Source: Oscillospiraceae bacterium (lineage in GTDB: Bacteria; Bacillota_A; Clostridia; Oscillospirales; Ruminococcaceae). Taken from it: a DNA stretch of 6,654 nucleotides. The notes under the pieces were generated by a model, which had not been told where the DNA came from, did not search any database, and was given only the letters and a program-made list of their open reading frames with translations. The stretch lies in the NCBI GenBank assembly GCA_900766795.1, contig CAAFWX010000037.1, forward strand, positions 1 to 6,654, given 5' to 3'. The position numbers and the translations under genes are program-made. Shown one piece after another: positions 1-6,654 of the stretch (positions within the stretch are counted from its first letter, which is position 1; the number at the start of each line of letters is the position of its first letter).

Positions 1-863
1 AGCATAATATAGATGAAGAAATTGATATTCGCCATAACCGCGTCAAGGTTTTCTGCGGGAATAACCTCGATGATTCGCCAGCCCGTTGTCGGCATAACCA
101 CAACCGCGCCCACAGCGCAGCTGCTGCCGCATTTTATTCGCAGGGAAACGTCCGTCTGCGCGTCAAAAATAAGCGAGATGTCCTCGTCCTTTGCCATGTC
201 GAGAGAAACGTCCGCGGGGAGGAGATAAGCGCCTGTATCAAAATTATGGGTGCATGAAATAATGCGGTTTTCGCTGTCAACCAGCACACCCGTCATCTCC
301 TGCCCGAGAAAGTCCGACCCGAGCAGGGAAGATATGGTGGTGTTTCCGCCGAGCGTGCCCGTGATTACCCCGACGATTTTTTCGTTGTAGCAGAGCGGGG
401 TGTAGAAATTCAGCAGCGGCTCTTTAGAGTATTTTGGCGCGAAGTTCACCCAGATTCCCGTTTTTCCCGCCATGCCGTTGATGTAGTACTCTCTGCCGCT
501 TGCGTCAAATGGCTCGCCCGCGTCGGTTGTGTTCATGCCGTCCGCGCGGATGTACTCAATGGAAGTGAACGGAGTATTCGTAAGGTGCTCGCTGATGGAT
601 TCGTGCGGGTTTTCAAGCTCCTCGCCGTCCATGTACTTTGAGATTTCGGCAGCAGTGACCTGAATGCTGTTTATCGCATAGCCGACGGAGCTTTCGATTG
701 AGCCGCAAATCTGCTTGGTTTCGCGCGAGATGGTGTATTCCGCGTCGCGCATGATTTGGCTGTTCTGCTTCTCAACGATGGCGTAGAGCGACAAAAGAAC
801 AATCAGCATTACCAAAACCGACAGAACTATGTACAGCCTTTTATATAAACTCTTGTTTTCCAT
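1..863 (-). CDS. Membrane sensor with extracytoplasmic double-Cache (dCache_1-like) domain, 3' end outside window
   Basis: Open on the minus strand from the ATG at 863-861 to the window edge, giving 287 residues with no stop. A GGGAG ribosome binding site precedes the ATG by a few bases. A short basic N-terminus (MENKSLYKR) leads into one hydrophobic helix at about residues 10-30. A long extracytoplasmic stretch (about 31-275) follows, and a second hydrophobic segment starts near residue 280 (INFFIYIM) at the cut. The loop has features of dCache_1 ligand-binding domains: GREYYINGM at 123-131, then KTGIWV at 134-139, a second lobe with VLVDSENRIIS, and the closing TTGWRIIEVIP around W262. In this family the domain senses small ligands outside the cell and passes the signal through the second helix to a GGDEF, histidine kinase or chemotaxis output. 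Which output applies cannot be told here. It has its own promoter at 897-925. Confidence 0.85.
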   Translation of the reverse strand, partial: MENKSLYKRLYIVLSVLVMLIVLLSLYAIVEKQNSQIMRDAEYTISRETKQICGSIESSVGYAINSIQVTAAEISKYMDGEELENPHESISEHLTNTPFTSIEYIRADGMNTTDAGEPFDASGREYYINGMAGKTGIWVNFAPKYSKEPLLNFYTPLCYNEKIVGVITGTLGGNTTISSLLGSDFLGQEMTGVLVDSENRIISCTHNFDTGAYLLPADVSLDMAKDEDISLIFDAQTDVSLRIKCGSSCAVGAVVVMPTTGWRIIEVIPAENLDAVMANINFFIYIM

Positions 864-894
864 ATTTACTCCCAATTATTTGTAGACTATAATA

Positions 895-913
895 GGATTA
901 TACCATATAATCC
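895..913. repeat. Perfect palindrome overlapping the Cache-gene promoter; possible operator
   Basis: The plus strand reads GGATTATA, then CCA, then TATAATCC: 8-base arms around a 3-base centre. It covers the whole -10 box of the minus-strand promoter and most of the adjoining spacer. Because of the symmetry the plus strand also carries a TATAAT (906-911), with a weak -35 (TAGACT, 883-888) exactly 17 bases upstream. A dimeric repressor site is a natural reading, but palindromy of the -10 itself could be chance in AT-rich DNA. No regulator gene for it is visible. Confidence 0.5.
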
Positions 914-925
914 AATATATTTCAA
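897..925 (-). promoter_or_regulatory. Sigma-A type promoter of the Cache sensor gene (extended -10)
   Basis: On the minus strand there is TTGAAA at 925-920, a 17-base spacer, and TATAAT at 902-897. A TGG lies directly before the -10 (extended -10 form). Transcription should start near 890, leaving a leader of about 27 nt before the ATG at 863. The -10 and the end of the spacer lie inside a perfect palindrome (895-913). Confidence 0.8.
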
Positions 926-1021
926 CACAAATTTCATTTTTTTACAGCAGAAAAATGGCTCGGCAGCGGCGCATTTAATTCCCGCGTCTGAATGCGGAAT
1001 ACCCTCGAAATTTGTCGGGAC

Positions 1022-1050
1022 TTGACAAATACGCGGCTTGGTTGTAAAAT
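1022..1050 (+). promoter_or_regulatory. Sigma-A type promoter of the FUSC/HAD-like fusion gene
   Basis: TTGACA at 1022-1027 (perfect -35), 17-base spacer, TAAAAT at 1045-1050. The expected start is near 1057, giving a leader of about 55 nt before the ATG at 1112. This position argues that the longer open frame reaching back to 992 is not translated, because it would begin upstream of the promoter. Confidence 0.8.
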
Positions 1051-1099
1051 AATCTTGTTAGGGCAAAACAGAAATAAACATCAAATGCCCTTGAACAAA

Positions 1100-1105
1100 A
1101 AGGAG
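1100..1105 (+). promoter_or_regulatory. Ribosome binding site fixing the start of the fusion gene at 1112
   Basis: AAGGAG lies 6 bases before the ATG at 1112. The other in-frame ATGs, at 992 and 1085, have no Shine-Dalgarno sequence at a suitable distance, so this site decides the start. Confidence 0.8.
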
Positions 1106-1111
1106 AACAAA

Positions 1112-2386
1112 ATGAAGGAAAAACACAAACTGCCGCCAATCGGCGCCAGAATCCTGAAATCTGCGGCGGGAGTCGCACTGTGCATGTTGGTATATTTACT
1201 GCGCGGAAACGGCGGAATGCCGTTTTACAGCGCGCTTGCCGTGCTGTGGTGTATGCAGCCCTACTCGGAAACAACGCTTGACATGGCGAAGCAGCGCACC
1301 ATAGGCACGCTTATCGGCGCGGGGTTCGGGCTGGTGTTTCTGCTTGCAGAGCGCCTTTTCGTAAACCCCAATTCTGCGGCGGTTTATCTGTGCGCGTCGG
1401 TAATGATTGTGCCGATAATCTACCTTACGGTGCTGCTTGACAAGCGCAACGCTTCGTTTTTCAGCTGCGTTGTGTTCCTGAGTATCACCATCACTCACAG
1501 CTTTGACGCGAACCCCTATCTTTTTGTGCTGAACCGCGTGCTTGACACCTTTATCGGAATTGCAATCGGCGTATTGATGAACATTCCGCTTGTGCACCGA
1601 AAGCACGACAATTCCGTACTGTATGTCAGCGGAATTGACGATGTGCTGGTGGGAAGCTCCAACGCGATGATTCCCTACAACAAGGTGGAGCTTAACCGAC
1701 TTATCTCAAAGGGCGCGATGTTCACCGTGTCAACGGTTGAAACGCCCGCAACGCTGCTGACGCTTATGGAGGGTGTGTCGCTAAAGCTCCCCGTTATCGC
1801 AATGGACGGCGCGGTGCTTTACGACACCGCCGAGAACAGCTATATCGAGAGGATAACGCTCCCCGAGGAAACCTCGCGCCGCTGTGAGGAAATCATCACC
1901 GCGCAGGGGCTGCACTGCTTTGTGAACACCCTGTGCGAAAACACGCTGCTGATATATTATGGCGATTTCACAAACGAGCCTGAGCGCGACATGTTCAGCC
2001 GCTTAAGCTGCTCGCCCTATCGCAACTACATAACAAAAGAGCACCGCACGGAGCATTCCGAAACGATTTATCTGCTGGTGCTTGCCGAAAACGAGAAAAT
2101 CGAGTCGCTGCGCGAGAAGCTGTCTGCCGAGCTGGGCGACAAAATCCGCGTCACGGTTGTAGAATCTAAGGAATACGACGGCTACTCAAAGCTTCGGATT
2201 TACTCCCGCGAATCGGGAAAGCAGCAAATGCTGAAAGTGCTTATGGAGCGCGTTGGCGCTTCCTCGTGCGTGACATTCGGAAGCATAGAGGGGCAGTATG
2301 ACGTGATTGTCCACGACGACGGCGGAAACTCCGCGGTCAAGGAGTTCAGACGGCGCTATAAAAAGAGCCGCGTGAAGAATAATTAA
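1112..2386 (+). CDS. ArAE_1/FUSC-like membrane protein fused to a degenerate HAD (Cof-type) domain
   Basis: 424 residues from the ATG with a good AAGGAG site. Residues about 10-160 form an integral membrane domain of about six helices (near 12-31, 37-50, 63-83, 90-109, 115-128, 137-160). The GARILKSAAGVALC opening and QRTIGTLIGAGFGL (61-74) resemble the aromatic acid exporter ArAE_1/FUSC family, putative efflux proteins. Residues about 168-424 match the layout of a type IIB HAD phosphatase: motif I region VSGIDDVLVG (172-181), motif II region FTVSTVE (204-210), VIAMDGAVLYD (228-238, like the VISANGAVIHD segment of Cof proteins), a possible motif III Lys (K370) and an end resembling motif IV (TFGSIEGQYD, 388-397). 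The nucleophile Asp of DxDGT is Gly174, the motif II GR is VE, and the GDxxND acid pair is gone, so I infer it is catalytically dead and perhaps a binding or regulatory module. Transported substrate unknown. The family calls are from pattern recognition; the membrane part is surer than its substrate. Confidence 0.8.
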   Translation: MKEKHKLPPIGARILKSAAGVALCMLVYLLRGNGGMPFYSALAVLWCMQPYSETTLDMAKQRTIGTLIGAGFGLVFLLAERLFVNPNSAAVYLCASVMIVPIIYLTVLLDKRNASFFSCVVFLSITITHSFDANPYLFVLNRVLDTFIGIAIGVLMNIPLVHRKHDNSVLYVSGIDDVLVGSSNAMIPYNKVELNRLISKGAMFTVSTVETPATLLTLMEGVSLKLPVIAMDGAVLYDTAENSYIERITLPEETSRRCEEIITAQGLHCFVNTLCENTLLIYYGDFTNEPERDMFSRLSCSPYRNYITKEHRTEHSETIYLLVLAENEKIESLREKLSAELGDKIRVTVVESKEYDGYSKLRIYSRESGKQQMLKVLMERVGASSCVTFGSIEGQYDVIVHDDGGNSAVKEFRRRYKKSRVKNN

Positions 2387-3084
2387 CAGTGCTCTGTAAA
2401 AGTGCGGAAAATCTTTCGGCTGTTCTCGTCCGCGAGGTAGGAGTATTCGGGGTGCCACTGCACCGCCCAGAGAAAGTACTGCCCCGGCGCATAGACCGCC
2501 TCTGTAAGCCCGTCAGCTGAGTAAGCCATCTCGCGAAGCTTCGGCGAAAGCTCCTTTATGCCTTGATGGTGGAAGCTGTTGACGCTTATTCTGTCCCTGC
2601 CGAGAAGCCGTCTGAGCGGCGACTCGGGGCAAATCTCCACATCGTGCGAGGGCACGTCAAACGGCGGCTTCTGGCAGTGCACCAGCCCTGACGGCAGCTG
2701 CGAGGGAATGTCCTGATAGAGAGTGCCGCCCAGCGCCGCGTTGATGAACTGTATTCCGCGGCAGATTCCGAGAATCGGCTTGTCCTCGGCAATCGCCCGC
2801 TCCAGAAGCAGCTTTTCCATAAGGTCGCGCTCAAAGCTGATTTCGCCGCAGCGCTCATCGGGCTTTTCCCCGTAAAGCGCGGGGTTCACGTCCTGTCCGC
2901 CCGTGAACAGAAATCCGTCGCAAAGCTCGCAAGCCTGCTCCGCCTCGCTCACGCTGCCAAATACAGGCAGTATTACGGGAAACGCCCCCGCGTCCTGCAA
3001 GCCCTTAAGATACCCCGGAACCATCCAAATGCGGTTCTTCTCATAGTTCAACAGCGGTACAACACCGATTTTCGGTCTGTTCAT
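2383..3084 (-). CDS. Gamma-glutamyl-gamma-aminobutyrate hydrolase family protein (peptidase C26, class I GATase fold)
   Basis: 233 residues, complete. Characterised relatives such as PuuD cleave gamma-glutamyl amides in the cytoplasm, including gamma-glutamyl-GABA in putrescine breakdown; the substrate here is not known. The fold is visible in order: MNRPKIGVVP start, the FTGGQDVNP loop (60-68), the nucleophile elbow GICRGIQ with Cys108, the NSFHHQG segment (169-175), and VQWHPE with His211 and Glu213 completing the Cys-His-Glu triad. Length fits the family (about 230-250). The start is taken as ATG 3084-3082. An in-frame GTG at 3093-3091 would add three residues, but its bases overlap the AGGAG site, which is 8 bases from the ATG. 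No puu pathway genes are nearby, so a polyamine role is unsupported. Its stop overlaps the stop of the convergent fusion gene. It has its own strong promoter and a hairpin leader. Confidence 0.9.
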   Translation of the reverse strand: MNRPKIGVVPLLNYEKNRIWMVPGYLKGLQDAGAFPVILPVFGSVSEAEQACELCDGFLFTGGQDVNPALYGEKPDERCGEISFERDLMEKLLLERAIAEDKPILGICRGIQFINAALGGTLYQDIPSQLPSGLVHCQKPPFDVPSHDVEICPESPLRRLLGRDRISVNSFHHQGIKELSPKLREMAYSADGLTEAVYAPGQYFLWAVQWHPEYSYLADENSRKIFRTFTEHC

Positions 3085-3092
3085 ATTTGTCA

Positions 3093-3097
3093 CTCCT
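3093..3097 (-). promoter_or_regulatory. Ribosome binding site of the C26 hydrolase, overlapping a decoy GTG
   Basis: On the minus strand AGGAG (3097-3093) is followed after 8 bases by the ATG at 3084. The G at the end of the site is also the first base of an in-frame GTG, which therefore cannot use this site as its own Shine-Dalgarno sequence. Confidence 0.75.
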
Positions 3098-3108
3098 ATA
3101 TAAAAATA

Positions 3109-3136
3109 GGCGCTCTTTCGTGAAGAAAAGAGCGCC
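3109..3136 (-). terminator. Terminator-like hairpin in the 5' leader of the C26 hydrolase (possible attenuator)
   Basis: A perfect 10-bp stem: GGCGCTCTTT (3109-3118) pairs with AAAGAGCGCC (3127-3136) around an 8-base loop. On the minus strand it is followed at once by TATTTTTATA and then the AGGAG site. It sits between the predicted transcription start (about 3143) and the ribosome binding site, so it forms almost the entire 5' end of the mRNA. It could be an attenuator, a 5' stabilising hairpin, or a barrier to rightward read-through from the fusion gene, though the plus-strand side has only a poor T-tract. No alternative antiterminator stem is obvious. Confidence 0.65.
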
Positions 3137-3149
3137 CTTGCTTATCTTG

Positions 3150-3178
3150 ATTATAAAACAAATGCGGAATTTTGTCAA
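3150..3178 (-). promoter_or_regulatory. Perfect consensus sigma-A promoter of the C26 hydrolase
   Basis: On the minus strand TTGACA (3178-3173), a 17-base spacer, and TATAAT (3155-3150), both boxes matching consensus fully. The expected start is near 3143, leaving a leader of about 59 nt that includes the hairpin at 3109-3136. Predicted to be strong. Confidence 0.85.
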
Positions 3179-3180
3179 GC

Positions 3181-3239
3181 GAATTTCAGAAAACCGTTAT
3201 TTTTTGCAGGATTATTCCCGCCGCTCTTGAAATTCAGAA
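3181..3239 (+). repeat. Pair of 11-bp near-identical direct repeats between divergent promoters
   Basis: GAATTTCAGAA (3181-3191) and GAAATTCAGAA (3229-3239) match at 10 of 11 positions, 48 bases apart. The first abuts the -35 of the C26 hydrolase promoter; the second overlaps the -35 of the glmS promoter. This placement would suit a shared regulator, but short AT-rich repeats arise by chance, so this is tentative. Confidence 0.3.
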
Positions 3240-3255
3240 GCATTCGTGATATAAT
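3227..3255 (+). promoter_or_regulatory. Sigma-A type promoter of glmS (extended -10)
   Basis: TTGAAA (3227-3232), a 17-base spacer and TATAAT (3250-3255), with TGA immediately before the -10 giving the TGn extension. Expected start near 3262, so the glmS leader is about 77 nt. It is divergent from the C26 hydrolase promoter; the two -35 boxes are about 50 bp apart. Confidence 0.85.
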
Positions 3256-3281
3256 ATAGATGGTTTTCATAAAATGAACAG

Positions 3282-3301
3282 GGCGGCGCTTGCGTGCCGT
3301 C
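3282..3301 (+). other. Short GC-rich hairpin in the glmS leader
   Basis: GGCGGCGC (3282-3289) can pair with GTGCCGTC (3294-3301) over 8 positions, two of them G-U, around the loop TTGC. It lies about 20 nt after the predicted start and 22 nt before the AGGAG site. No T-tract follows, so it is not a terminator. It could stabilise the mRNA or be a protein site; function unknown. Confidence 0.45.
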
Positions 3302-3338
3302 AGAGAAATAAACTGTTTTAGATAGGAGAAAATATATT

Positions 3339-5165
3339 ATGTGCGGAATCGTTGGTTATGTTGGTCGGCGCGATTGTGCCGATGTGCTTATGGACGGGCT
3401 GGAAAAGCTGGAATACCGCGGCTACGACAGCGCGGGAATTGCGGTGTTTGAGGACAACATCATAAAGACAATCAAAACCCGCGGCAAGCTTGAAGCGATG
3501 AAAGAAAAGCTCGCGCTTGAGGGAAAGCCACTGGGTCACTGCGGAATCGGTCACACCCGATGGGCAACCCACGGAGAGCCGTCGGACGTAAACTCCCACC
3601 CCCACAGCAACGGCAGGGTAACAATTGTACATAACGGAATCATCGAAAACTATATCCCCCTGAAAGAGTTTCTGACCGAAAAAGGGTACAAATTCGCGTC
3701 GCAGACGGACAGCGAGGTGGTTGCCTGCCTGCTGGACTATTACTACTCGGAGAGGAATCCGCTGCGTGCCATCATGGAAACGGTGAAGGAGCTTGAGGGA
3801 AGCTATGCCCTCGGGATTATCTTCAAGGACTTCCCCGACCGCGTTTACGCTACTCGAAAGGGAAGCCCGCTTATCGTCGGCGAGGGCGACAATGAGTTCT
3901 TTATCGCCTCGGATATTCCCGCGTTTTTGAAGTACACGAAGAACTACGTTCTGCTGGAGGACGACGAGATTGTCTGCATGGAGGGCGGGAGCATTGATTT
4001 CTTCGATGTTCACGGCATTTCCATCGATAAGGAGGTCAGTGTCGCGGAGTGGGACGTTGAGCAGGCGCAGAAGTGCGGCTACCCCCACTATATGCTCAAA
4101 GAAATCCACGAGCAGCCCGAGGTTGTTCAAAAGACCCTCGACAGCATTGTAAAGGACGGCGTTCCCGATTTTGAGGAAATAGGGCTTACAGACGAGCGGC
4201 TTCGCGGCGTGAAGCGGGTGTTTGTGGTTGCCTGCGGCACGGCAATGCACGCGGGCATTGTGGCGCGCTACGCAATCGAAAAGCTGGCGCGCGTGCCTGT
4301 TACCGTGGAGGTTGCGAGCGAGTTCAGATATATGGACCCCATTGTGGGGGAGGGCGACCTCGTTATTGTGGTGTCCCAGTCGGGCGAAACCGCCGACACC
4401 AAGGCAGGTCTGGAGCTTGCAAAGGAGCGCGGCGCAAAGACGCTTGCTGTCGTAAACGTGAAGTACAGCGCCATCGCACGCGAAGCGGATATGTTCATTC
4501 ACACGCTTGCAGGCCCCGAGATTGCCGTTGCTTCCACTAAGGCGTACACCGTGCAGATTGCGGTGTTGTATCTTATCGCGTTCCGTTTTGCCTTTGCAAA
4601 GGGGAAAATCGACCGCGCGGAGCTTCAGCGCCTGACATCGCAGCTTTACGCTGCCCCCAAAGCCATTCAGGACATCATCGACAACAAGGACCGCTGCCAG
4701 TATATCGCGTCCAAGCTTGTGAACGTTGAGAACCTGTTTTTTATCGGCAGAAGCTTCGACCACGCGCTGTCGCTTGAAGGCTCGCTTAAGCTTAAGGAGA
4801 TAACCTATATCCACTCCGAAGCGTATGCTGCGGGAGAGCTTAAGCACGGCACAATCTCGCTTATCGAGCAGGGAATCCCCGTTATCACGGTTGCCACGCA
4901 GTCCGACGTTCTTGCAAAGACCATAAGCAACATGGAGGAGGTCAAGGCGCGCGGCGCGTTCATTGTTGCGGTTTGCCGAAAGGGCACGCAGTTCAGCGAA
5001 AACACCGTTGACCTTAAGTTCGAGATAGACACCGAGCTTGACGATATGCTCATTCCGATTCCGACGGTGTGCGCGCTCCAGCTTATCGCCTACTACACCG
5101 CCGTGCTTCGCGGAATTGACCCCGACAAGCCCAGAAACCTCGCAAAGTCCGTTACCACCGAATAA
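3339..5165 (+). CDS. glmS: Glutamine--fructose-6-phosphate aminotransferase (isomerizing), GlmS
   Basis: 608 residues, complete, close to the 609 of E. coli GlmS. It converts fructose-6-phosphate and glutamine to glucosamine-6-phosphate and glutamate in the cytoplasm, the first step towards UDP-GlcNAc for peptidoglycan. The N-terminal class II amidotransferase domain (about 1-220) begins MCGIVGYVG, so Cys2 becomes the nucleophile after Met removal; LEYRGYDSAGI (24-34), HTRWATHG (72-79), HNGIIENY (98-105) and TDSEV (123-127) are family signatures. Two SIS sugar-isomerase domains follow (about 285-420 and 455-590), with the SQSGETADT phosphate loop (346-354), STKAYT (399-404) and SLKLKEITYIHSEAY (482-496). 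The tail KPRNLAKSVTTE is the usual GlmS ending. The ATG is preceded by AGGAG (3324-3328) at 10 bases. It is monocistronic, with its own promoter and a terminator just after the stop. No glmS ribozyme is present upstream. No odd residues at active-site motifs. Confidence 0.98.
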   Translation: MCGIVGYVGRRDCADVLMDGLEKLEYRGYDSAGIAVFEDNIIKTIKTRGKLEAMKEKLALEGKPLGHCGIGHTRWATHGEPSDVNSHPHSNGRVTIVHNGIIENYIPLKEFLTEKGYKFASQTDSEVVACLLDYYYSERNPLRAIMETVKELEGSYALGIIFKDFPDRVYATRKGSPLIVGEGDNEFFIASDIPAFLKYTKNYVLLEDDEIVCMEGGSIDFFDVHGISIDKEVSVAEWDVEQAQKCGYPHYMLKEIHEQPEVVQKTLDSIVKDGVPDFEEIGLTDERLRGVKRVFVVACGTAMHAGIVARYAIEKLARVPVTVEVASEFRYMDPIVGEGDLVIVVSQSGETADTKAGLELAKERGAKTLAVVNVKYSAIAREADMFIHTLAGPEIAVASTKAYTVQIAVLYLIAFRFAFAKGKIDRAELQRLTSQLYAAPKAIQDIIDNKDRCQYIASKLVNVENLFFIGRSFDHALSLEGSLKLKEITYIHSEAYAAGELKHGTISLIEQGIPVITVATQSDVLAKTISNMEEVKARGAFIVAVCRKGTQFSENTVDLKFEIDTELDDMLIPIPTVCALQLIAYYTAVLRGIDPDKPRNLAKSVTTE

Positions 5166-5170
5166 AAAAC

Positions 5171-5199
5171 AGCCGCCCCGAGTTTCAATCGGAGCGGCT
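5171..5199. terminator. Bidirectional intrinsic terminator between glmS and the mrp operon
   Basis: AGCCGC C CCGA (5171-5181) pairs with TCGG A GCGGCT (5189-5199): an 11-position stem with one C/A mismatch and a 7-base loop. Rightward it starts 5 bases after the glmS stop and is followed by a modest T-rich stretch (TGTCTTATTT). Leftward it starts 4 bases after the stop of the C_GCAxxG_C_C gene and is followed by GTTTTTTATT, a better U-tract. It therefore serves both convergent units, most efficiently the leftward one. Confidence 0.85.
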
Positions 5200-5203
5200 T
5201 GTC

Positions 5204-5662
5204 TTATTTCTCGATAGGATTTTCCCTGATAAATTCTTCGATGAGGTCAGCAGCGAAGCGGCACAATTCGGGGCAGGGGCGCTTTTTGTAGTATTCGGCG
5301 GTGCGCGCTTCGGGCACAGCGGATTTCTCCGGCTGCTTTAGTCCGAGGAGTTCCTTGCAGATTATGCTGCCGTTTGCCGCGCGGAATTTATCGGCAAGCG
5401 CGCGGATTTTTTCGTAGAGCGCGGTTTTTCCCTCAAGGTCTTTAGGGTTCTCGTAGCCGTACAGCCAGCTTATGACCATCACCACTCCCGAGAAAGTGCC
5501 GCAGACCTCCCGCATTCGTCCCATACCGCCGCCGAAGCCCGAGGATATCCTCGCGGCGGTGGCTTCCTCCATGCCGAGTTCCTCCGCAAAAGCCACCGCA
5601 ATGGACTGCGTGCAGTTGTAGCCCTTCAGAAAGTTTTCGTATGCGATATCTCCCTTGCTCAT
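5204..5662 (-). CDS. C_GCAxxG_C_C family protein (cysteine-motif redox-type protein)
   Basis: 152 residues, complete, typical length for this family of unknown biochemical function found mostly in anaerobes. Signature elements in order: GYNCTQS with Cys17, SGFGGGMG (41-48), EVCGTFSGV with Cys54 (the GCAxxG-like element), GSIICKELLG with Cys102, and a C-terminal CPELC with Cys130 and Cys134. The conserved Cys pattern suggests metal or Fe-S binding or thiol chemistry, but this is inference from spacing. No clear signal peptide; the VVMVISWLYGY stretch (60-70) is too short to call a membrane segment. Its ATG (5662-5660) overlaps the mrp TGA (ATGA), and its GGAGG site (5676-5672) lies within the mrp coding end, so it is probably translationally coupled to mrp. 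It ends 4 bases before the terminator at 5171-5199. Confidence 0.9.
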   Translation of the reverse strand: MSKGDIAYENFLKGYNCTQSIAVAFAEELGMEEATAARISSGFGGGMGRMREVCGTFSGVVMVISWLYGYENPKDLEGKTALYEKIRALADKFRAANGSIICKELLGLKQPEKSAVPEARTAEYYKKRPCPELCRFAADLIEEFIRENPIEK

Positions 5663-6486
5663 TTAAAGCTTCCCTCCAAAGCGTCCGCAATCGGGTTTGC
5701 GGCGGTTGTCGTCATTTCCTCCAGCTTTCCTCTGTCAATAAGCGCCGCAAGCGCGGGGTCAACGGGAAGCTGCGCCAGCACCCTAAGCCCGAATTTTTCG
5801 GCAGTGTCGTAAAGCCTGCTTTCGCCGAAGATGTTGATACGCTTTCCGCAGTCGGGGCACAGGGCATAGCTCATGTTCTCGACAAGCCCGATAATCGGCA
5901 CGTTCATCAGCTGCGCCATCTTAACCGCCTTGCCGACAATCATTGAAACCAGTTCCTGCGGCGAGGTGACAACGATGATACCGTCAAGCGGCAGCGACTG
6001 AAACACCGTCAGCGGAACATCACCCGTTCCGGGCGGCATATCGACGAACATGAAGTCAACGTCCCCCCAGACAACCTCGCTCCAGAACTGCTTGACGGTG
6101 CCCGCGATGATGGGACCGCGCCAGACAACCGGGTCGGTTTCGTCGGGAAGCAGCAGGTTCACGGACATAAGCTCGATTCCCGTGTTCGTCAGCACGGGGA
6201 GCAGGGAGTCCTCGGCGCTCTGCGCCTTTTCGTTTACGCCGAACGCTTTCGGGACGCTCGGTCCCGTGATGTCCGCGTCAAGCACCGCGGTTTTGTAGCC
6301 GCGCCGCCGCATAAGCACCGCCGCCATGCAGGTGACGAGGGATTTCCCGACGCCGCCCTTGCCGCTGACAATGCCGATTACCTTTTTTATTTTGCTGCCC
6401 TCATGCGGCTCAACGAGGAAGCTTTCGCTCTTGCGCTCGGAGCAGCTTTGCGAGCAGCTCCCGCAATCATGTGTACATTCGCTCAT
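5659..6486 (-). CDS. mrp: Mrp/ApbC/NBP35 family P-loop ATPase, Fe-S cluster carrier
   Basis: 275 residues, complete. Members bind and transfer [4Fe-4S] clusters to apoproteins in the cytoplasm in an ATP-dependent way. Visible: an N-terminal Cys cluster (Cys4, Cys8, Cys11, Cys15; CX3CX2CX3C), the deviant Walker A SGKGGVGKS (41-49) with Lys43 and Lys48, DADITGPSVP (70-79), VVWRGP (120-125), the PPGTGD loop (151-156), SPQELV (175-180), and CPDC (Cys210, Cys213), the CxxC that bridges a cluster between two subunits. The N-terminal Cys cluster resembles the eukaryotic Nbp35 arrangement in kind but not spacing. It lacks the N-terminal MIP18-like (DUF59) domain found in many bacterial Mrp proteins. 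The start ATG 6486-6484 has AGGA about 9 bases upstream. It lies 27 nt after the preceding gene and overlaps the next gene by 4 nt, so it is the middle of an operon. Confidence 0.95.
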   Translation of the reverse strand: MSECTHDCGSCSQSCSERKSESFLVEPHEGSKIKKVIGIVSGKGGVGKSLVTCMAAVLMRRRGYKTAVLDADITGPSVPKAFGVNEKAQSAEDSLLPVLTNTGIELMSVNLLLPDETDPVVWRGPIIAGTVKQFWSEVVWGDVDFMFVDMPPGTGDVPLTVFQSLPLDGIIVVTSPQELVSMIVGKAVKMAQLMNVPIIGLVENMSYALCPDCGKRINIFGESRLYDTAEKFGLRVLAQLPVDPALAALIDRGKLEEMTTTAANPIADALEGSFK

Positions 6487-6513
6487 TTCCTTTGTTCCTT
6501 TCCTAATATTGCC

Positions 6514-6654
6514 CTAGCACTCGTTCACTGCGTAAGCAATAGCGAGGTTTGCCTGTTCGGACAGCTTGTCCATAAGAGCGCGGTATTCCTCCGCTCTGCC
6601 TACGTTTTCCGCGGCTTCAAGCAGACCTTTGCTCGTGCGCCATGAGGGCGCACG
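6514..6654 (-). CDS. C-terminal fragment of an unidentified protein, first gene seen of the mrp operon
   Basis: The last 46 residues of a gene entering from the right edge on the minus strand, ending in TAG at 6516-6514. The other two minus-strand frames are closed by stops within about 60 bases of the edge, and this frame ends 27 nt before mrp, just ahead of the mrp ribosome binding site; together these support it as coding. The visible part is alpha-helical in character (SKGLLEAAENVGRAEEY, then MDKLSEQANLAIAYAVNEC) and ends in Cys. I do not recognise the family. Same strand and short spacing suggest cotranscription with mrp. Confidence 0.65.
   Translation of the reverse strand, partial: RAPSWRTSKGLLEAAENVGRAEEYRALMDKLSEQANLAIAYAVNEC

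Follow-up and report, generated by a model that had tools for sequence, protein, structure and literature searches.

The window analyzed here is a 6,654-nucleotide stretch of DNA from an Oscillospiraceae bacterium (GenBank assembly GCA_900766795.1, contig CAAFWX010000037.1, positions 1 to 6,654). At 1112..2386 on the forward strand it carries a gene for a 424-residue protein that joins a membrane domain to a Cof-type HAD domain lacking the standard catalytic set. We read this protein, with a probability of about 0.5, as an organic-anion channel or exporter of the ALMT type, gated on its cytosolic side by a pseudophosphatase that would bind, but not hydrolyze, its ligand. The two-domain architecture, the predicted folds, the loss of motifs, the selection on the gene, and its linkage to other genes in relatives are all directly supported by the analysis. 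What is new is that 14 of 338 fused proteins retain the whole catalytic set, that quick trees suggest several losses of catalysis, and that linked gene types lie near the gene in 42 of 80 relatives. Among open PubMed Central papers, we found no description of a FUSC/ArAE_1-HAD fusion.

The fused protein and its lost catalytic residues

The gene runs from an ATG at 1112, preceded by AGGAG at 1101-1105, to a TAA at 2384-2386, as the earlier note on this DNA had placed it, and all of the protein strings quoted there (VSGIDDVLVG, FTVSTVE, VIAMDGAVLYD, K370, and TFGSIEGQYD) are found in the translation. Its features are as follows.

1112..2386, + strand: fused gene, ALMT/ArAE-like membrane domain plus pseudo-HAD (AGGAG at 1101-1105)
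1136..1582, + strand: membrane domain, residues 9-157, six helices, predicted ALMT channel fold (structure models, fold matches, Pfam FUSC_2/ArAE_1)
1616..2380, + strand: Cof-type HAD domain without the standard catalytic set, residues 169-423 (Pfam Hydrolase_3, fold searches)
1628..1651, + strand: motif I, SGIDDVLV, residues 173-180, Gly174 at the nucleophile-Asp position, Asp176 kept
1724..1738, + strand: motif II, TVSTV, residues 205-209, Thr208 kept (199 of 201)
2012..2029, + strand: cap patch SPYRNY, residues 301-306 (column conservation 0.92-0.99, n = 87)
2219..2221, + strand: motif III, Lys370 (K in 188 and R in 9 of 201)
2279..2302, + strand: degenerate motif IV, GSIEGQYD, residues 390-397, metal-binding acids replaced (Ser391 in 190 of 201)
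2303..2383, + strand: shortened tail past motif IV, residues 398-424 (Pfam coverage, comparison with relatives)

The HAD assignment of the C-terminal part, made in the earlier note from motifs, was borne out by the Pfam model Hydrolase_3 (E 6.2e-14, 52.8 bits, cut-off 20.9) and by fold searches with Foldseek and VIA-align, which found a HAD core with a C2 cap. The score against the NCBIfam Cof model, TIGR00099, was 36.6 bits, below the cut-off of 137. When the single HAD sequence was searched against the PDB with phmmer, the seven matches had E values of 0.23 or worse and none was a HAD by name; a profile of 17 members retrieved Cof-type HADs (12 sequences).

Alignment with stand-alone Cof-type enzymes from other family-carrying genomes placed Gly174 at the nucleophile position and GSIEGQ where GDxxND is expected in motif IV, again as the note had read them. 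Across 201 sequences (121 proteins, the window's included, and 80 loci), position 174 was Gly in 187, Glu in 12, Ala in 2, and Asp in none, and Asp176 was invariant. The shortening after motif IV was also confirmed: 27 residues follow Asp397, and the Hydrolase_3 profile is matched only up to position 202 of 255, compared with position 255 in the fused protein P0179 and 253 in L103. Among 87 nonredundant rows selected for Gly, Glu, or Ala at 174, Asp176 (conservation 1.00) and Thr208 (0.98) lay at or above the 95th percentile of HAD columns, and Lys or Arg occupied position 370 in 85, against a domain mean of 0.56.

Because of these counts and percentiles at positions 174, 176, 208, 370, and 391, the window's clade is judged, from its sequences, to have lost the nucleophile and the metal-binding acids yet retained the phosphate-binding and acid/base positions. 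In HAD chemistry, the kept Asp acts as acid/base and the kept Thr and Lys bind phosphate, while phosphoryl transfer requires the nucleophile and the motif IV acids. Since these are lost in the clade, the domain should not hydrolyze phosphate esters. Public records often call these proteins hydrolases, which is probably wrong for this clade.

The N-terminal multi-helix domain had been likened to ArAE_1/FUSC, and both Pfam models matched above cut-off (FUSC_2, E 2e-14, 54.3 bits, cut-off 25.6; ArAE_1, E 6e-10, 39.8 bits, cut-off 22). Fold searches recognized the six-helix ALMT membrane fold in the predicted structure. Pfam ALMT was absent from the matches of the window protein; this model (PF11744) is listed for one relative, P0155. 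The note had named the ArAE_1_C domain as a competing identity for the C terminus, but it did not appear among the Pfam matches at E up to 1; the ArAE_1/FUSC_2 membrane family does not require it for membership. In another genome, two adjacent genes (L111:1117-2817; 278 and 275 residues) both encode ArAE_1/FUSC_2 proteins with a non-HAD C-terminal part, perhaps forming a heteromer.

Family, selection, and origin

The fusion is not a chance event, because 2155 of the 7999 candidate proteins scored reached an E value of 1e-3 or better and the best 120 of those 2155 all carry FUSC_2, ArAE_1, and Hydrolase_3. A scan of species-representative genomes yielded 290 encoding stretches, and the 80 best of these make up the loci analyzed here. 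Every locus has a single open frame for the match, which covers both domains in 79 of them, and three loci reach the edge of a contig. Going by record titles, 79 are from Bacillota (49 Oscillospiraceae) and one is from a metagenome-assembled genome titled Alistipes. This last locus (L071, titled as Bacteroidota) has the family gene together with linked genes and is perhaps a misbinned contig. Genome samples gave full-length fused matches in 16 of 391 genomes for a class (E ≤ 1e-20, with at most four candidates scored in each genome), in 11 of 148 for a family, and in 2 of 398 for the phylum (both at E ≤ 1e-40), each sample including its center genome, G001, a known carrier. A viral origin was considered and rejected: six stretches of viral contigs matched a pattern and none was confirmed.

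Two further proposals of the note, that the HAD fold is maintained without its catalytic residues and that an open frame argues against simple decay, held up well. The median dN/dS was 0.107 for the HAD part versus 0.096 for the membrane part, with a largest HAD value of 0.21, over the 96 of 134 pairs with dS below 2. Taken with the motif counts, the models, and the single open frame in all 80 loci, these values of about 0.1 point to purifying selection on a noncatalytic HAD fold fused to a membrane domain. Mean column identity over the 87 rows was 0.56 in the HAD part versus 0.68 in the membrane part.

Stand-alone HADs matching the HAD part occur in five of eight family-carrying genomes, and no motif is missing from any of the 11 rows used; this set excludes L120, which is a double HAD, and L122, whose sequence contains masked letters. 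The protein at L120:1258-3066 is a 602-residue stand-alone protein with two HADs of different subfamilies, HAD_2 followed by a Cof-type domain with full motifs. A widened search seeded with 17 divergent fused proteins gave 338 distinct fused rows, in which the nucleophile position was Gly in 211, Asp in 59, Glu in 24, Asn in 23, Ser in 8, Ala in 6, Thr in 5, and Arg in 2. The whole catalytic set is kept in 14 of them (P0158, P0178, P0179, and 11 more), four with Arg for Lys; the rows were gathered as relatives of the window protein, so the fraction of intact rows should not be taken as a census. The Cof cut-off is exceeded by P0179 and P0158 and narrowly missed by P0136 (132.8). Other fused HADs (L105-L108, L128-L133, P0122-P0241) are broken differently, with NLDG, ELDN, SLFN, GLGG, and others at motif I, and some have a full-length Cof tail.

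In a 92-row tree built without the motif columns, the window protein belongs to a 49-row clade (support 96) that has no intact members, while the 12 intact fused rows lie outside it in several places, requiring at least five changes between intact and broken. A 58-row tree, from which four long-branch rows were dropped and in which the broken rows were thinned, needs four changes, and a single catalytic loss for all broken fused rows was disfavored (p-AU 0.023). These were quick trees with a weak root (support 53), and their starred branches by themselves require at most 2-3 changes. Because some fused relatives keep the full catalytic set, the architecture probably started as an active enzyme, and the trees lend modest support to the suggestion that an active fused ancestor followed by several losses is the simplest history.

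Gene neighborhoods in the window and in relatives

We looked at the neighborhoods of the best 80 of 290 loci, fetching up to 8 kb of flank, although some contigs were short. Genes of four linked types (CP-ATP-grasp, Alpha-E, transglutaminase, and AstE-like) recurred: at least two types were present in the flank of 42 of the 80 loci and at least one in 47. Where 4 kb was available on both sides, 24 of 38 loci held at least two. The layouts vary: a CP-ATP-grasp gene follows the fused gene on the same strand within 250 bases in 16 of the 80 loci and is divergent within 450 bases in 5, and an AstE gene ends at most 60 bases upstream in 9. Across the class sample, CP-ATP-grasp was found in 12 of 391 genomes and in 5 of the 16 in which the fused gene was found at full length (Fisher p 3.9e-5), or in 5 of the 9 best-scoring fused-gene genomes (p 1.3e-6, a group chosen after looking); these tests ignore genome kinship, and in two of the five genomes the two genes are on different contigs.

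In Clostridia, CP-ATP-grasp, Alpha-E, a transglutaminase-like gene, and two AstE/AspA-like genes form a five-gene set (L156-L165, L002-L074) that is complete in 8 of 10 regions. No proteasome-family (Anbu-type) gene was found beside the set in the 12 CP-ATP-grasp genomes, the one match over the cut-off being on another contig. Iyer et al. reportedly dealt with such operons in 2009, to go by the papers that cite them.

Other neighbors also recurred. In 16 of the 80 loci (e.g., L027, L040, L047, L058, and L160), the fused gene is followed on the same strand, at a distance of no more than 200 bases, by a citrate synthase gene, and an isocitrate dehydrogenase-like neighbor, named by eye, was seen in 10 loci; together these hint at a link to 2-oxoglutarate or glutamate. 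A gene for a PPDK_N protein of about 860-910 residues is the immediate upstream neighbor in 14 of the 80 loci (L018-L021, L029, L034, L042, and others).

In the window, the fused gene stands alone, with an upstream gene on the opposite strand and a convergent downstream gene. The upstream neighbor is dCache_1-like (37.7 bits, under the Pfam cut-off of 45). The downstream neighbor overlaps the fused gene by four bases and is followed by glmS.

2383..3093, - strand: peptidase C26 (class-I glutamine amidotransferase-like), possible partner (Pfam 7e-63; convergent)

This C26 gene has homologs, 45-66% identical, in 16 of the 80 loci, with two of the alignments being short, and in L016 and L017 a peptidase C26 gene sits 18 bases downstream on the same strand. 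Farther along the window (5204-6486, - strand), a gene for a C_GCAxxG_C_C redox-type protein adjoins one for an Mrp/NUBPL-type iron-sulfur carrier. Rfam and tRNA scans of the 6,654 nucleotides gave no matches.

A proposed gated channel or exporter, its alternatives, and known systems

A channel-type fold with an appended domain that has a pocket but no chemistry is best read as a gated transporter. The six-helix ALMT-fold domain would, judging by its fold and the literature, move an organic anion, probably as a dimer, with the former Cof-type phosphatase taking the place of the ALMT cytosolic helices. The pseudo-HAD would likely bind a cytosolic anionic or phosphorylated metabolite, and its occupancy would be relayed to the membrane part as the gate. 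A ligand-sensing gate fits the kept Asp176, Thr208, and Lys370 and, by analogy with ALMT, the position of the HAD. The gene linkage in relatives points to organic acids or amide-linked compounds, and the pathway it suggests for the compound would include CP-ATP-grasp, Alpha-E, transglutaminase, AstE-like hydrolases, peptidase C26, and citrate synthase. Neighboring genes for the amide-joining of small molecules in relatives suggest a channel or exporter under the control of a former enzyme. It is binding, gating, transport, the substrate, and the pathway in the window's own organism that we infer.

Several observations weigh against this reading. At most one of the four linked gene types is present in 38 of the 80 loci (some contigs are short), and none of the four is in the 6.65-kb window, which has only C26. 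Seven other fused genes of the class sample (L149-L155) are without the linked set nearby, and seven genomes have CP-ATP-grasp but no full-length fused hit. For the membrane part, the Foldseek E value of the ALMT match is just 0.016, and a membrane-domain profile found no match among PDB chains at E up to 1. The model is poor at the interdomain hinge (pLDDT 50-70). Lys370, counted as Lys alone, reaches only the 77th conservation percentile, with Arg in 13 of 87 rows.

The main alternative, which we consider distinctly less probable than a ligand-sensing gate, is that the pseudo-HAD is a structural or docking module, which would stabilize the dimer or bring cytosolic partner enzymes to the membrane part and would sense no small ligand. 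Conservation on the HAD surface, for instance in the SPYRNY cap patch, is as strong as in the pocket; the patch is conserved in the clade, and ten stand-alone siblings instead carry Lys at 304 and Phe at 306. One broken lineage (NDTV type) has lost the motif III Lys as well, so the pocket is not kept everywhere, and, according to excerpts of PMC11842843, the cytosolic domains of GmALMT12 also form a dimer interface. The window's clade, however, keeps its three pocket residues far above the domain mean. It is improbable that the HAD domain is still catalytic, with an ordinary or a new activity, through Asp176 or other residues: the retention of Asp176, Thr208, and Lys370 and the full set in close fused relatives would allow it, but the nucleophile and the motif IV acids that HAD phosphoryl transfer needs are both replaced clade-wide. 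That the HAD part is a functionless, decaying remnant is very improbable, since the loss of catalytic residues, its lower conservation than the membrane part, and a gene that in one genome is split between two neighboring frames and has a truncated HAD part (L127:1395-2611) are set against a single open frame in each of the 80 loci and the low dN/dS.

Returning to the gated transporter, we offer a broader proposal only tentatively: Clostridia would have a class of ligand-gated organic-anion channels of the ALMT fold with a pseudophosphatase as cytosolic gate, a gate derived on several occasions from an active fused phosphatase. In the window's clade, these channels would govern the exit or entry of a product or substrate of an ATP-grasp/Alpha-E/transglutaminase/AstE pathway without Anbu. 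If this is true, one family of fused transporters spans the range from active enzyme to dead regulatory domain, and because both ends are alive today the step from catalysis to sensing is directly testable. Bacterial ALMT-type proteins would also gain a gating domain and a candidate pathway, and the ATP-grasp/Alpha-E/transglutaminase gene sets a membrane component.

Among known systems, the Cof-type HAD-IIB phosphatases (TM0651, YidA, the Cof family, and stand-alone siblings L089-L093 and L114) share the fold, domain order, Asp176, Thr208, and Lys370 with the window protein, which differs in lacking the nucleophile and the motif IV acids, in its short tail, and in scoring under the TIGR00099 cut-off. 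The intact fused relatives have the same two-domain architecture but hold the full HAD motif set. Plant ALMT channels (AtALMT1, AtALMT9, and GmALMT12/QUAC1) have the same six-helix membrane fold followed by a cytosolic domain, which comprises six helices in the excerpts of PMC11842843, whereas the window protein has a HAD and no helical cytosolic domain. Bacterial ArAE_1/FUSC_2 proteins share the two Pfam domains but otherwise stop at the end of the membrane domain or have a different C-terminal part (e.g., L111).

The gene sets resemble the Anbu-type operon of ATP-grasp, Alpha-E, transglutaminase, and Anbu, whose makeup is given in excerpts of PMC6376114 and PMC5666114, in that three of its four gene types neighbor the family in relatives; unlike in that operon, AstE-like genes follow instead, two of them in 8 of 10 regions. 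The role of ATP-grasp/Alpha-E/transglutaminase gene sets is described as unconfirmed in the excerpted text of PMC6376114. Finally, RloB of Pseudomonas aeruginosa, as portrayed in excerpts of PMC12239564, combines an inactive transglutaminase domain with transmembrane helices in one fused protein, and its operon also contains an ATP-grasp gene; it is an analogy and not a relative, with another enzyme fold, another membrane part, and a periplasmic location.
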